From NCBI GenBank assembly GCA_023511585.1, contig JAIMBF010000030.1, forward strand, positions 1-32,369: DNA of 32,369 nucleotides. The letters run 5' to 3'. The translations under genes were made by a program, and so were the position numbers. The notes below the pieces were generated by a model. That model saw only the letters and a list, made by a program, of their open reading frames with translations, did not search any database and was not told where the DNA came from. The DNA is from Terriglobia bacterium (GTDB taxonomy: Bacteria > Pseudomonadota > Alphaproteobacteria > Acetobacterales > Acetobacteraceae). This document shows, one piece after another, positions 3,501-8,030 of the stretch. The number at the start of each line of letters is the position of its first letter. The first letter of the stretch is position 1.

Positions 3501-3857
3501 GCCGGCGAGGTGCGAGAGAAGCCGATCACGCTCAACGACATCGTCATTACCACGCCCTACAACGCCCAGATCTTCGAGATCCAGCATCCGCCGGGCGCAC
3601 GTGTAGGCACCGATGACAAATTCTAGGGCTGGGAAGCATCGATCGCCATCTATTCGACCGCGACGTCACGTGACGCGGATGCACCACGCGGAACAAAGTT
3701 TCTCTACAGCCTAAACCAGCGCAGTGTCGCGACCTCGCGCGCGAAGTGCATTTCGATCCTCGTGGGTTCGCCGCAGCATCTCGAAGCGGAATATCGGACG
3801 CCAGGGCAGATTTAATTTTAATTGGCGAACGCCTTCTGCCGCTACCTTGAACTGCCA
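3501..3857 (+). pseudogene. Decayed C-terminal fragment of an SF1 (Upf1/Dna2-like) helicase
   Basis: One continuous frame reads like the C-terminal RecA-like domain of AAA_12-type SF1 helicases. Recognisable pieces are ITLNDIVITTPYNAQI (motif IV region), PGARVGTDDKFQGWEA (motif V, normally VGTVDKFQGQEA), FLYSLNQRSVATSRAK (motif VI, normally NRLNVATSRAR), and LANAFCRYLEL at the end. The frame is broken by TAG at 3624-3626, exactly at the expected Gln of KFQG, and by TAA at 3813-3815 and 3819-3821. Homology continues through all three stops with no frameshift. The N-terminal part, including Walker motifs, is missing or unrecognisable. These enzymes are often fused to a RecB-like nuclease. The remnant is therefore a dead gene close to the Gabija operon. 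Confidence 0.7.
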
Positions 3858-3963: not shown

Positions 3964-5874
3964 TCACGCATCTGTCTGCGGCTGACAGAACCCCATCTCG
4001 ACGAGGAACCGTGAAGGCTTTTTCCTCCAACCACGGTAGCTCTCTGCACGACTAAGGATGAGCGATTCCTTGGCTCGCGTGATGGCAACGAAGCAGTTGC
4101 GCCGTTCCTCTTCCATCTCCGGGCTACCGTCACCTTTCTTACAGCTTTGAAATGACGGCAGCACGTCTTCGGCCAGCCCGATCAGATAAACGAAATCAAA
4201 CTCACGGCCCTTCGCCCCATGCACCGTCATAAGGGTAACGGTGTCAGGCTGCGGCGATGGTGCCTTCGATCGCAACTGAAGCTGCTGTAGGAACGCATCC
4301 AGCGAAATGTTGCGTCCAAAGTGCTTGCGGATATCGTTGGAAATCTCATTCCATGCCGCAAGGTCTTCGGCGAGGTCCGAGTCATTTCCAGTGGCCTGGC
4401 TTGCAAACTCTTTGAGAATTTCGTCTGCGATCTTCATCGCTGACGCCGGTTCGAGGCGACTGGCGGCTTCGATTAGCTTCAGCCGCGCCGACCCGTCTCC
4501 CACCTCTCGCTTAGCCGCTTCGACCCATGCTCTGAGATAGGCGACGCCGCTTGCTTCTGCGTCCGACAGGACCTGATCTACCGACGCTTGAATCTCGGCA
4601 AACCTATTGAAGGCGTCCACTAGGACGGCTAAGTTTCGGCGGTCCAACGGCCGCACGATCTCGACTAAACAAGCGACCAGCCACCGGATTTCGGCGGAAA
4701 GAAAATTGTCCTGACGTTGTGCGATGACGGCGGGCACCTGCTGAACCTGAAGCGCCTTTTGCATCCGCTCCAGCAGGGCGCGGGTTCGCGCAAGGACCGT
4801 GGTCTGCCCCCACTGGCTCTTTCCACGCGCTGCAATCTCCTTTGCGATCTCCTCCGCTTCCATCTGGTCGGAATCAAAATTGCGAAGCTGGATATGTTCA
4901 TGTTCGGGAAGCTTGAGTTCCTTCTTGCCAGCGATAAGAGGCTTCTTCGCCTCTGTCCGCTGGACATTATAGGATACGAGCCTATTGGCCGCAGCCACTA
5001 TGGCAGGCGGACAACGGTAGTTCGTCGGCAACTGAATCAATTGTGGAGTGAAGTCAGCACGGAAACGCTGAATCTGTCGGAAGCTAGCACCATTCCATTG
5101 GTAGATAATCTGGTCGTCGTCCGCTACGGCGAAGACATTCTTGAAGTCTTGACCCGCCATCGCGCAAAGAAGGCGATATTGGGCTTCATTGGTATCCTGA
5201 AACTCGTCGAGCAGCCAATAAGGATAGAAGCGGCGGTACCAGCCCGCGATCGCAGGGAAATTTGAAAACAGCCTATGCGCCTCGAATATCAAGGAATTGA
5301 AATCCAAAACATTGAGGCGGCGCAATTGATCTTCGTAAGCCAGATAGGCTTGGGAGAACTCGTAGGCGTCGGTGGTTCCCGCTAGACATGACACCGCGTC
5401 CTTCGGTTCGATCAACCAGGTCTTCATTCGGTCGATCAAACTGAGATACCGGACGGCCTGCGTGTCCATGCCTGCGCGTTTCAGCGCGTCTTTCAGAACG
5501 GCTTTACGATCATCGTCCTGTGAGTAGATGGCGAAGTCCGGCTTGATGCCGAGGTGGGTGCCATGTTGGCGCAGAACTTGTCCGCAGAAGCTGTGGAACG
5601 TGCCGATGTTCGCGCGTTCCTCAAGGCCGGGGACAAAATTAGCAACGCGCTCCTTCATCTCGTCAGCGGCCTTGTTCGTGAACGTCAGCGCGAGAACGCG
5701 GAAGGACTTGTTGCGGCCCTCGTCAAGCAAGCGGGCGATTCGACACGTGAGCACCAGCGTCTTCCCCGAGCCAGGACCGGCGAGGACCAGCATAGCACCA
5801 TCGTTCCACGCTACTGCTTCGCGCTGGATGTCCGTCAGTTTGGTGAGGGCCTGCTCAAGCGGATTGTCGGTCAT
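3964..5874 (-). CDS. gajB: GajB, UvrD/PcrA-like SF1A helicase of a Gabija defence system
   Basis: The 636-residue product has the full UvrD-type motif set: Q-motif region (LTDIQREAV), Walker A GPGSGKT at 33-39, DEFQD Walker B at 223-227, motif III ADDDQIIYQWNGA at 251-263, motif IV NYRCP at 285-289, motif V TVHGAKGREFD near 550-560, and motif VI VAITRAKE near 596-603. In Gabija, GajB partners the GajA nuclease; it is thought to sense or process DNA ends and activate DNA cleavage. Its ATG overlaps the gajA stop in an ATGA junction, which implies translational coupling. It is longer than the roughly 490-residue Bacillus cereus GajB. An ordinary UvrD paralogue is less likely because of the tight coupling to an OLD-TOPRIM gene. 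Confidence 0.88.
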   Translation of the reverse strand: MTDNPLEQALTKLTDIQREAVAWNDGAMLVLAGPGSGKTLVLTCRIARLLDEGRNKSFRVLALTFTNKAADEMKERVANFVPGLEERANIGTFHSFCGQVLRQHGTHLGIKPDFAIYSQDDDRKAVLKDALKRAGMDTQAVRYLSLIDRMKTWLIEPKDAVSCLAGTTDAYEFSQAYLAYEDQLRRLNVLDFNSLIFEAHRLFSNFPAIAGWYRRFYPYWLLDEFQDTNEAQYRLLCAMAGQDFKNVFAVADDDQIIYQWNGASFRQIQRFRADFTPQLIQLPTNYRCPPAIVAAANRLVSYNVQRTEAKKPLIAGKKELKLPEHEHIQLRNFDSDQMEAEEIAKEIAARGKSQWGQTTVLARTRALLERMQKALQVQQVPAVIAQRQDNFLSAEIRWLVACLVEIVRPLDRRNLAVLVDAFNRFAEIQASVDQVLSDAEASGVAYLRAWVEAAKREVGDGSARLKLIEAASRLEPASAMKIADEILKEFASQATGNDSDLAEDLAAWNEISNDIRKHFGRNISLDAFLQQLQLRSKAPSPQPDTVTLMTVHGAKGREFDFVYLIGLAEDVLPSFQSCKKGDGSPEMEEERRNCFVAITRAKESLILSRAESYRGWRKKPSRFLVEMGFCQPQTDA

Positions 5875-7784
5875 GCCAGCCCCGGAAGGTCTGCAATCGC
5901 ATCACGAAATGCCTGGGGCATCCTTTCTGCGAGCGCCGCGTTTCCGCGCATCATGGTTGCTAGCTCCGCCGCGTAGGCGGTCTTGTGGCCTCGCAAATAA
6001 TCTAGCAATGCAGCCTGGTCGGCTGTCGCAGCGTCAGAGATGCCGATGTTGGTCAGTGCGGTTTTGAGTTCCAGCTCAAGGCCGTCGGCGACCAATTGTG
6101 CTTCAAGGTCCCTGGCGGTGAGCGTCCGGCACCGGGTCGCGACGAACGCTGGCGCGAAGCCGCGCTTCTCGATGCTTTGGCAATAGCCACGCCCTGTGTC
6201 ATCACCGTCGAACACTGCAAGCCACGGTATGGCGAGCGCCCGTGCGAGGGCGGCGAAGATGCCGGGGTTGCCATTGTTCTGGGCGTCGATCACTGCGACG
6301 CCGTGCTCGTCTAGGTCGTATTCAAGCTCGCGCGCCATCGCGTGAACGAGCAGGTATTCGGCCTGCCCCTCCACGATAAACCAACGGCGCGCAAAGAAGA
6401 TTTCACCCCGAATCCGCCGCGCGAAGGTTTCCAACGCCCTCAATTCGTTATCGCCGATAAAGAGCAGCGAGCGGTCACGCAGGCCCTGCAGGTCATCGTG
6501 GATCGCGGCCCTGTCGGCGTGCGTCCCGTAGCAGGTCAGCAGATCCCGATAACACTGCTTATCCAGCTTACCGTGAACGGTCAGCGTCTCTGCCGCGCGA
6601 TCGTATTCGAGCAACCTGCCACTTCCAGCAACAACGTCATCGAGCTTCGCCACGTGCGGGATACGTGCGGAGAAGTTCGCGGGCAACGAATAGACCTCCG
6701 TCCCCTTTTCGGTGAGGCGAACCACGCGCAGGTCGCGAAATGGGACGTGCTGCACAAAATAGGGGGAGTGCGTGGTGATGATCTTCTGACCGGGCAGATC
6801 TTTGATATGCGTCCACAGCGTTCGTGCGGCTTGTGGATGCAGATGCGTTTCTGGTTCTTCAAGCGCTAGCACAGGCGCGCTGTCCGCCTCGTAGAGCTCA
6901 GTGAGTAGGTGTTCAACGAAGGCCTTGAACAGGAAGATGATGGAAAGACTCTGCACGCCCTGGCCATGACGTTGCAGCGGAAGCCACGGCCAGTCCGGCT
7001 CATCACGAAGGATGATCTCGGCTCTGGAAAGCAGGTCCCATGATTTGAGGGGAACGAGCCGTAAATCGACCCTGCCGTCGCGGTCGCGGGCCGCCACTCG
7101 CGTCGTGCCGGAGAGAGTCTCCGCGATCTTTGCAAGCCGAGGATCGGCTTGCGCCAACTTCTTGTTCAGAAGATCGAGGACGCGTTGGACTTTGAATTCC
7201 AACGCGGGCGGAATCTCCATGGCCTTGAGCAACCGGCCCCAAAATTGAGAGCGCGGCGAAAACTCGTCGTCCACGTCGCGCAACGCGCCGAGATAGAAGA
7301 ACGGGAGATACTGCCAAAAGCGTTCGAGATTGATGCGCCGGACCGAGCCGCCAACAAACGGGTCACGTCCTGCGTTGAGGAATGTCCACGACGGCTCAAA
7401 ACTTTGGGTGGCTTCATTCCAGGCGCAGCTTGCACGGAGAATGATGGAGGTCTTTTCTGTAGCCGGATCGATCTGGATGATCTCGCCGAGATCCTGCTTA
7501 AGGGTCACGGGCCATTCTCCCGCTTTTTGCTCTTCGACCCGAATCTCTATTGAGACACCGGGAGACGCTTTCGGGTCAGCGTGCTCGTCGGCAAGGTGGA
7601 CGTCGTACTCGGTAAAGCCTGTGCCACGCTGTCCCCAGCGGCGTGTGAGGACAAATCTTATAGCGTCGAGGATGGCTGTTTTCCCGGCATTGTTCGGGCC
7701 TATCAAGACAGTCGTGTCATTCAGTTCGAGGTCGAGGGACTTGATCGAACGAAAGTTTGAGATACTGAGACGGGTGATACGCAT
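5871..7784 (-). CDS. gajA: GajA, OLD-family ATPase-TOPRIM endonuclease of a Gabija defence system
   Basis: The 637-residue product starts MRITRLSISNFRSI, the usual opening of OLD/RecF-type ATPases. Walker A GPNNAGKT is at 29-36, an ABC signature-like GQGVQSLS near 274-281, Walker B VLALEEPE near 305-312, and the H-loop TTHS at 337-340. The C-terminal TOPRIM domain shows WFIVEGQAE (Glu 472), VID (Asp 500) and VFDGDD (Asp 526 and 528), the acidic metal-binding set. In Gabija, GajA forms the nuclease core that cuts DNA when nucleotides are depleted during phage infection. An in-frame ATG at 7826 would add 14 residues of low-complexity sequence; I chose 7784 because it directly precedes the conserved N-terminus and overlaps the upstream stop (TAATG). 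Confidence 0.9.
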   Translation of the reverse strand: MRITRLSISNFRSIKSLDLELNDTTVLIGPNNAGKTAILDAIRFVLTRRWGQRGTGFTEYDVHLADEHADPKASPGVSIEIRVEEQKAGEWPVTLKQDLGEIIQIDPATEKTSIILRASCAWNEATQSFEPSWTFLNAGRDPFVGGSVRRINLERFWQYLPFFYLGALRDVDDEFSPRSQFWGRLLKAMEIPPALEFKVQRVLDLLNKKLAQADPRLAKIAETLSGTTRVAARDRDGRVDLRLVPLKSWDLLSRAEIILRDEPDWPWLPLQRHGQGVQSLSIIFLFKAFVEHLLTELYEADSAPVLALEEPETHLHPQAARTLWTHIKDLPGQKIITTHSPYFVQHVPFRDLRVVRLTEKGTEVYSLPANFSARIPHVAKLDDVVAGSGRLLEYDRAAETLTVHGKLDKQCYRDLLTCYGTHADRAAIHDDLQGLRDRSLLFIGDNELRALETFARRIRGEIFFARRWFIVEGQAEYLLVHAMARELEYDLDEHGVAVIDAQNNGNPGIFAALARALAIPWLAVFDGDDTGRGYCQSIEKRGFAPAFVATRCRTLTARDLEAQLVADGLELELKTALTNIGISDAATADQAALLDYLRGHKTAYAAELATMMRGNAALAERMPQAFRDAIADLPGLA

Positions 7785-7987
7785 TAGGCGTCGCCCTCCC
7801 GATCGGCCGCTGCCGAGGGCGGACACCTGCCAGAAGGTTCGACCGACGGGCCATGGTGCTCAACGTAATCGCGTATGAATTCCCGAAAAACCTGGGCAGC
7901 GGGCTTGCCCTGTGTTCGACACACCTCAAGGAATTTGTCGCGAAGACCGCGCTGCACTCTGATGCGGAGCCTCGAATCCTTCATCAT
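7784..7987 (-). CDS. Small ribbon-helix-helix (CopG/Arc-like) protein, putative Gabija operon regulator
   Basis: The 67-residue product has the pattern of an RHH DNA-binding domain: a basic strand SRLRIRVQ (5-12), helix A about 14-26 (LRDKFLEVCRTQG), and helix B about 29-44 (PAAQVFREFIRDYVEH). A short Pro/Ala-rich polar tail follows. Its stop overlaps the gajA start in TAATG, so the three genes form one operon with this protein first. That is the usual place for an autorepressor, but the role is inferred. A GTG at 8035 would add 16 residues that overlap the promoter elements, so I prefer ATG 7987. A second ATG follows at 7984. No Shine-Dalgarno precedes it, consistent with the leaderless promoter described separately. 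An antitoxin-like accessory role is also possible. Confidence 0.75.
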   Translation of the reverse strand: MMKDSRLRIRVQRGLRDKFLEVCRTQGKPAAQVFREFIRDYVEHHGPSVEPSGRCPPSAAADREGDA

Positions 7988-7993
7988 GCCAAT

Positions 7994-8022
7994 AGTGTAG
8001 TCAATGGATACACGCCGGCCAA
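7994..8022 (-). promoter_or_regulatory. Candidate promoter of the RHH-gajA-gajB operon giving leaderless mRNA
   Basis: On the minus strand, TTGGCC (8017-8022, 4 of 6 to the -35 consensus) and TACACT (7994-7999, 4 of 6 to the -10 consensus) are separated by exactly 17 bp. Six bases separate the -10 hexamer from the A of ATG 7987. The predicted +1 therefore falls on the start codon itself. There is no ribosome binding site before that ATG, which fits leaderless translation. Confidence 0.45.
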
Positions 8023-8030
8023 CAGAATCA

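Follow-up and report, generated by a model that had tools for sequence, protein, structure and literature searches.

The closest known analogue of the regulator described here is RptR (RMS-proximal transcriptional regulator) of enteropathogenic E. coli, whose gene opens a defence operon and which represses its own promoter by way of short sites that overlap the -10 element (Zhang et al., 2025, PMC12255303). The RptR family is associated with restriction-modification (R-M) systems, of Type I in 54 of 117 cases (PMC12255303). Type II R-M loci likewise encode small autoregulators, the controller (C) proteins (PMC12707154), and the WYL-domain regulators BrxR and CapW of BREX and CBASS accompany many unrelated defence systems (PMC9122589, PMC9122588, PMC9122601). 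Little is known about how defence systems stay quiet between infections and while settling in a new host. Here, we analyzed a stretch of 32,369 nucleotides (contig JAIMBF010000030.1 of assembly GCA_023511585.1, deposited as Terriglobia bacterium and placed in the Acetobacteraceae), referred to as the window, in which a gene for a short ribbon-helix-helix (RHH) protein precedes the Gabija genes gajA and gajB. The RHH protein is probably an autorepressor of portable type, under which the Gabija system has been placed in an operon predicted to be leaderless. Rather than a third Gabija part, it seems to be a portable switch that turns defence genes on and off.

The window protein differs from each of these regulators. 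RptR is all-helical, recognizes repeated TAGCTA palindromes in one major groove, and serves mostly Type I R-M systems, whereas here the predicted fold is RHH, the half-sites are GTGTATCC, and the clients are many and include Gabija; reading of the 120 bp upstream of the window RHH gene revealed no TAGCTA, and neither the predicted fold nor the site is that of RptR. C proteins are helix-turn-helix (HTH) proteins that usually activate at low dose, whereas the predicted site of the window RHH lies at a repressor-type position. BrxR and CapW combine a winged HTH with a WYL domain, are several times longer, and have a possible ligand site, while the window RHH consists of a DNA-binding core only. 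In the open-access papers searched, no paper was found on an RHH protein with Gabija, on RHH controllers of R-M systems, or on this family or its site, an absence that is not proof, since subscription papers lay outside the search. The short RHH proteins appear to form a new RHH-based family of defence-operon controllers, with the window Gabija operon as one client.

Relatives of the short RHH protein were collected by protein similarity alone from three collections, which form a sample and not a census; a simple identity rule grouped the 34 loci into 21 clusters, several of which are single metagenomic viral contigs. The short RHH genes are the first genes of defence operons, usually with a 4-base overlap with the next gene, and they occur on plasmids, chromosomes, viral contigs, and one phage record. 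The next gene was a defence gene in 20 of the 21 clusters, the single exception having IS26 in this position. R-M operons are the clients of most relatives, and the RHH protein is not specific to Gabija. The clients comprise Type I genes (hsdR-hsdM in Sphingobium and hsdM in L071), a C5 methyltransferase with a NotI-family nuclease (many plasmids and Pseudomonas phage vB_Pae_U8) or with an NgoMIV-family nuclease, an N6 methyltransferase with XamI, a D12 methyltransferase with SacI, a BPTD_3080 nuclease (genome G116), DUF1156-like and MAD2-like methyltransferases, an HKD-Snf2 protein, and Gabija.

Of the 34 short RHH genes, 32 (19 of 21 clusters) had the exact half-site GTGTATCC in the 100 bp before them, against a chance rate of about 0.0035 per locus, and this half-site was the top 8-mer without prior choice. 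It was found upstream of none of the 35 toxin-antitoxin (TA)-type RHH genes, whose top 8-mer was GTATATAC. The half-site GTGTATCC mostly lay 26±3 bp upstream of the RHH start codon (starting in most cases at 25-29 bp), over the predicted -10 element; of the two loci without the exact sequence, one (L067) carried a one-base variant and the other (L071) a perfect palindrome of related sequence, ATGTAACCATTGGTTACAT. A scan of the 3.14-Mb genome with the pattern GTGTATCCN{2,7}NNNTACAC returned the window operator as its sole match, and the window RHH itself occurs once in this genome, at the Gabija operon. Scanning the viral contigs with the operator pattern gave seven matches, four of which were contigs found independently by the protein profile, so the operator statistics are not circular. 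The remaining three (L051-L053) had no RHH among their open reading frames (ORFs) and were taken as chance matches. By its sequence, the window RHH is a member of the family as defined here, with GTGTATCC near -26 over the predicted promoter and, behind the RHH gene, a defence gene that overlaps or adjoins it. A transcriptional role for the RHH protein, suggested in a preliminary description of the window, gains support from this family-wide operator over the predicted RHH promoter.

Two operator architectures were observed. In the first, the half-sites converge in a near-palindrome, GTGTATCC-AWT-GGYTACAC, found with Gabija, BPTD_3080, hsdR, DUF1156-like, and HKD-Snf2 clients; in the second, GGATACAC-N3/4-GTGTATCC, an extra half-site lies upstream near -38, found with C5 and XamI-type R-M clients. 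The N4 form of this second arrangement (GGATACAC-N4-GTGTATCC) could separate activation from repression, and many relatives head R-M operons, where controllers commonly act in this way (PMC12707154), so that the RHH protein might instead activate transcription, or both activate and repress it as the Type II C proteins do, with delayed expression as the outcome. We consider this unlikely: no upstream site accompanies the Gabija-type operator, which covers the spacer and -10, where repressors usually bind, and where methyltransferase and restriction endonuclease are encoded in one operon behind the RHH gene, activation would not delay the nuclease relative to the methyltransferase. When the site of an RHH protein overlies the -10 element, as with Arc, CopG, and ParD, the protein is normally a repressor.

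Table 1. Genes and predicted control elements of the RHH-Gabija operon in the window.
Feature	Coordinates	Strand	Details
RHH gene, first of operon	7784..7987	-	67 aa; ATG at 7987, stop TAA 7786-7784
gajA	5871..7784	-	637 aa; OLD-family ATPase + TOPRIM nuclease (PADLOC, motifs)
gajB	3964..5874	-	636 aa; UvrD/PcrA-type helicase (PADLOC, motifs)
Predicted -35, TTGGCC	8017..8022	-	17 bp from TACACT; positional equivalents TTGGCT (Novosphingobium) and TTGGTC (Methylocystis)
Predicted RHH operator, GTGTATCCATTGACTACAC	7995..8013	-	7/9 palindromic pairs; half-site family-wide
Predicted -10, TACACT	7994..7999	-	overlaps operator; kept in all three RHH-Gabija loci

The promoter was proposed from conservation and spacing only, and because the start codon lies 7 nt past the predicted -10, a leaderless transcript is predicted. 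In the autorepressor model, which is drawn from sequence, the RHH protein would dimerize and its β-ribbon would read the half-site GTGTATCC; the dimer would bind the near-palindrome at 7995-8013, covering the promoter spacer and the -10 element. The bound protein would block RNA polymerase, so that RHH, gajA, and gajB would be kept low in cells already carrying the operon. An operon entering a new cell would meet no repressor, and a burst of expression would be followed by a fall as RHH builds up; a signal removing RHH would release the operon again. Translation of gajA and gajB would be coupled to that of RHH through the gene overlaps. An independent study reported that the native 250 bp in front of PA14 gajAB reduces Gabija activity and that some recBCD mutants suffer from Gabija toxicity (PMC12407980). 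Together these findings offer a plausible reason to restrain gajAB, as indirect support from another locus.

The sequence-only assignment of the window protein to Pfam PF19839 (RHH_9) was weak (19.4 bits, under the 23.4 cut-off), and a direct sequence search against solved structures gave no match. Three close relatives, from Novosphingobium, genome G116, and Sphingobium, passed the PF19839 cut-off. The AlphaFold model contained helices at residues 13-26 and 30-45 (block predicted local distance difference test score, pLDDT, 91-95) and was disordered after residue 46. Its top Foldseek matches were RHH proteins (CopA(SO), VapB, Arc, CopG, AmrZ, and others); none reached E<0.3, as expected for a fold of about 40 residues. 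The RHH assignment holds because the three relatives pass PF19839 and the best fold matches of the model are RHH proteins; as modeled, the window protein has the β-strand and two helices within about 45 residues that characterize the Arc/MetJ/CopG fold. Residues 6, 8, and 10 are those that we take, from a hand alignment to Arc, to contact bases. In the short RHH family, R8 is invariant and R10 nearly invariant, while TA-type relatives have mostly T or N, then R or K.

The fold, the overlap with the next gene, and the expected autoregulation are common to the window protein, to PF19839 (RHH_9), and to RHH antitoxins of the ParD, VapB, and CopA(SO) type. A type II antitoxin has a C-terminal toxin-binding extension and an adjacent toxin gene, whereas the window RHH, like its short relatives, lacks such an extension and is followed by a defence enzyme gene, gajA, instead of a toxin gene. 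The preliminary description had also raised the possibility of an antitoxin-like guard. As a guard, RHH would bind GajA or GajB and keep the nuclease inactive, with autoregulation as a secondary function. The DNA-binding core does resemble antitoxins that act with ParE, PemK/MazF, and Fic, and toxin-antitoxin genes typically overlap as RHH and gajA do. More distant relatives, longer by 30-50 residues, are paired with ParE, PemK/MazF, or Fic genes instead of defence genes. However, the tail after residue 46 is short and is the least conserved part of the protein among the family. The first genes behind short RHHs are unrelated (C5 and N6 methyltransferases, HsdR, HsdM), which leaves no single shared protein partner possible, and Methylocystis retains gajAB beside a broken RHH gene. 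The guard was rejected as the main explanation on these grounds and appears very improbable.

A wider form of the autorepressor proposal is that a single RHH family, reading almost the same operator throughout, provides exchangeable control heads to many mobile defence systems that are not related to one another (Gabija, Type I, II, and III-like restriction, DUF1156-like, and HKD-Snf2). Because the target is shared, operons meeting in one cell would repress each other. We offer this wider form tentatively, as a possibility somewhat short of even. If true, an incoming defence operon would stay silenced by the resident copy until it has built up RHH and methylation of its own, and one phage antirepressor could release every such operon at the same time. 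If repression itself is true, Gabija and a range of restriction systems, carried by plasmids, phages, and chromosomes in Alpha-, Beta-, and Gammaproteobacteria, are under the control of one short protein and its 19-bp site. Cross-regulation between co-resident defence systems would then be directly testable, and GTGTATCC before a KDxGLRIRV protein would offer a signature by which new defence operons could be recognized from the gene that heads them.

Several individual loci of the family were also recorded. In Enterobacter roggenkampii pN260-3 (L048), where IS26 occupies the client position, the short RHH is intact and the operator complete, leaving an orphan controller on a resistance plasmid. 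In genome G492 (L070, 1501-3177), a short RHH and operator precede an HKD-Snf2 protein that matches PADLOC candidate C3a139 (186 bits). Two viral contigs carry candidate defence operons: L058:4004-8135, with a short RHH, a 968-aa N6 methyltransferase, and a 322-aa frame without a Pfam match, and L059:488-3874, with a short RHH, a DUF1156-like methyltransferase, and a 339-aa unknown protein.

The gene order RHH-gajA-gajB and its overlaps, given in the preliminary description, agreed with the ORF coordinates: the RHH/gajA junction is TAATG, with one base (7784) common to the RHH stop and the gajA ATG, and gajB starts within the ATGA that closes gajA. Identification of the pair as Gabija was likewise confirmed. 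GajA matched PADLOC model PDLC00062 over its full length (868 bits, residues 1-635), and GajB matched PDLC00114 over its full length (803 bits, residues 7-630); these form one PADLOC Gabija model pair, and the next models score far lower. Pfam domains were AAA_15 and OLD-like_TOPRIM in GajA and UvrD N/C in GajB. The motifs were intact in both GajA (Walker A GPNNAGKT at 29, Walker B LEEPE at 308, VEG at 471 with E472, and DGDD at 526 with D526/D528) and GajB (Walker A at 32, DEFQDTN at 223). In Bacillus cereus GajA, the active-site residues are E379 and D432/D434 (PMC10781630), the counterparts of E472 and D526/D528 in the window protein. Judged from these sequence features, the pair is a Gabija system, in which an OLD ATPase with a TOPRIM domain bearing the Glu and DxD residues is followed directly downstream by the GajB helicase. 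Like Gabija of B. cereus VD045 (PMC10781630), it combines an OLD-type ATPase/TOPRIM GajA with a UvrD-like GajB in a single operon; the window proteins are longer (637/636 aa versus about 578/494 aa in the solved chains), and the window operon has the extra RHH head gene. The structure prediction for GajA was poor (pLDDT 43 with four sequences), and the model was not used.

For comparison, the window and six further loci of the same GajA group were examined. The Novosphingobium locus (gajA 87%, RHH 79%) reads integrase, RHH, gajA, gajB, and BPTD_3080 nuclease, with the same RHH/gajA overlap, so that the joining of RHH to gajAB is not chance. DNA similarity between the two loci is confined to 3989-8025, limits that indicate that promoter/operator, RHH, and gajAB form one travelling block. 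Values of dN/dS (the ratio of nonsynonymous to synonymous substitution rates) were all <1 (RHH 0.29, gajA 0.10, gajB 0.10). Two plasmid records of Methylocystis bryophila (gajA 84%) have promoter, operator, and RHH in common with the window and an intact gajAB, and in both the RHH gene carries a one-base deletion (L008:7799-8000, L009:2799-3000); the records are of S285 and DSM 21852, which we take to be the same type strain and thus one isolate sequenced twice. The other four loci lack this RHH. A Hyphomicrobiales metagenome-assembled genome (gajA 82%) has an MmeI-type methyltransferase, a DEAD helicase, and a GIY-YIG-like gene ending TAATG into gajA; Nitratireductor (gajA 71%) has a different RHH, a C5 methyltransferase, and a NotI-like nuclease before gajA and gajB; G946 (gajA 45%) has a BsuBI/PstI R-M pair upstream of gajA; and in G346 (gajA 58%) nothing was recognized. 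This RHH was thus intact in two of the seven loci, frameshifted in one, and absent from four, and R-M genes took its place in three. The preliminary description had named a consistent lack of the RHH gene in related gajAB loci as its refutation; on this point the answer is mixed, with an intact gene in Novosphingobium, a broken copy in Methylocystis, and no such gene in the other four. The RHH is not an obligatory third Gabija gene, and its candidacy as a core gene was rejected because most related gajAB loci lack it. The three loci with this RHH grouped together in the gajA tree with modest support (0.77-0.81), the window copy forming a long branch; the RHH thus either joined this Gabija lineage once or was lost elsewhere.

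Two further features of the gajA group were noted. The Nitratireductor sp. XY-223 locus (L004:1133-5373) is a second, independent RHH-headed operon that includes Gabija; its RHH belongs to RHH_1 (21.1 bits versus a 20.5 cut-off), and an inverted repeat, CACCTTG-ATG-CAAGGTG, lies upstream. In three loci, the gajAB genes lie directly behind R-M genes of the MmeI, BsuBI/PstI, and NotI types (L003:338-9821, L029:4820-11597, L004:1242-7298), and Gabija in this group behaves as if it were an add-on to R-M operons, often lying inside them.

Some of these observations weigh against autorepression in the window. Residue 6 of the window RHH is R (codon 7970-7972), where aligned relatives have G, and the right half-site of the window operator is GACTACAC versus GGCTACAC or GGTTACAC in relatives (GAC versus GGC/GGT at 8000-8002); together they might be a matched protein-DNA change or drift. 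The window operator is palindromic at 7/9 pairs only (shuffle p about 0.05), so the case rests on the family and not on the window site alone. A generic sigma-70 scan scored no promoter upstream of the RHH gene, where the hexamers are weak. The dN/dS of RHH is about three times that of gajA, and the window copy might be drifting. Finally, several gajAB loci lack this RHH, and the frameshifted Methylocystis copy beside an intact gajAB indicates that gajAB can persist without it. The frameshift and the higher dN/dS of the RHH, together with the position of gajAB behind R-M genes in three of the seven loci and the pair of arrangements RHH-gajAB-BPTD_3080 (Novosphingobium) versus RHH-BPTD_3080 (G116), would fit a passenger, the remnant head gene of an earlier R-M operon that received gajAB as an insertion, no longer of use to Gabija. 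We regard this as rather unlikely, since the window and Novosphingobium both retain the operator, the RHH frame, and the TAATG junction, and the RHH dN/dS is still 0.29. The autorepressor model is preferred for the window operon.

Downstream of gajB, on the + strand (3529-3816), lies a decayed frame with an in-frame stop that by eye resembles a superfamily I helicase end; the piece beyond the stop had no Pfam match. The operon is flanked by a pyrroloquinoline quinone (PQQ)-dependent dehydrogenase on one side and a tripartite ATP-independent periplasmic (TRAP) transporter on the other.
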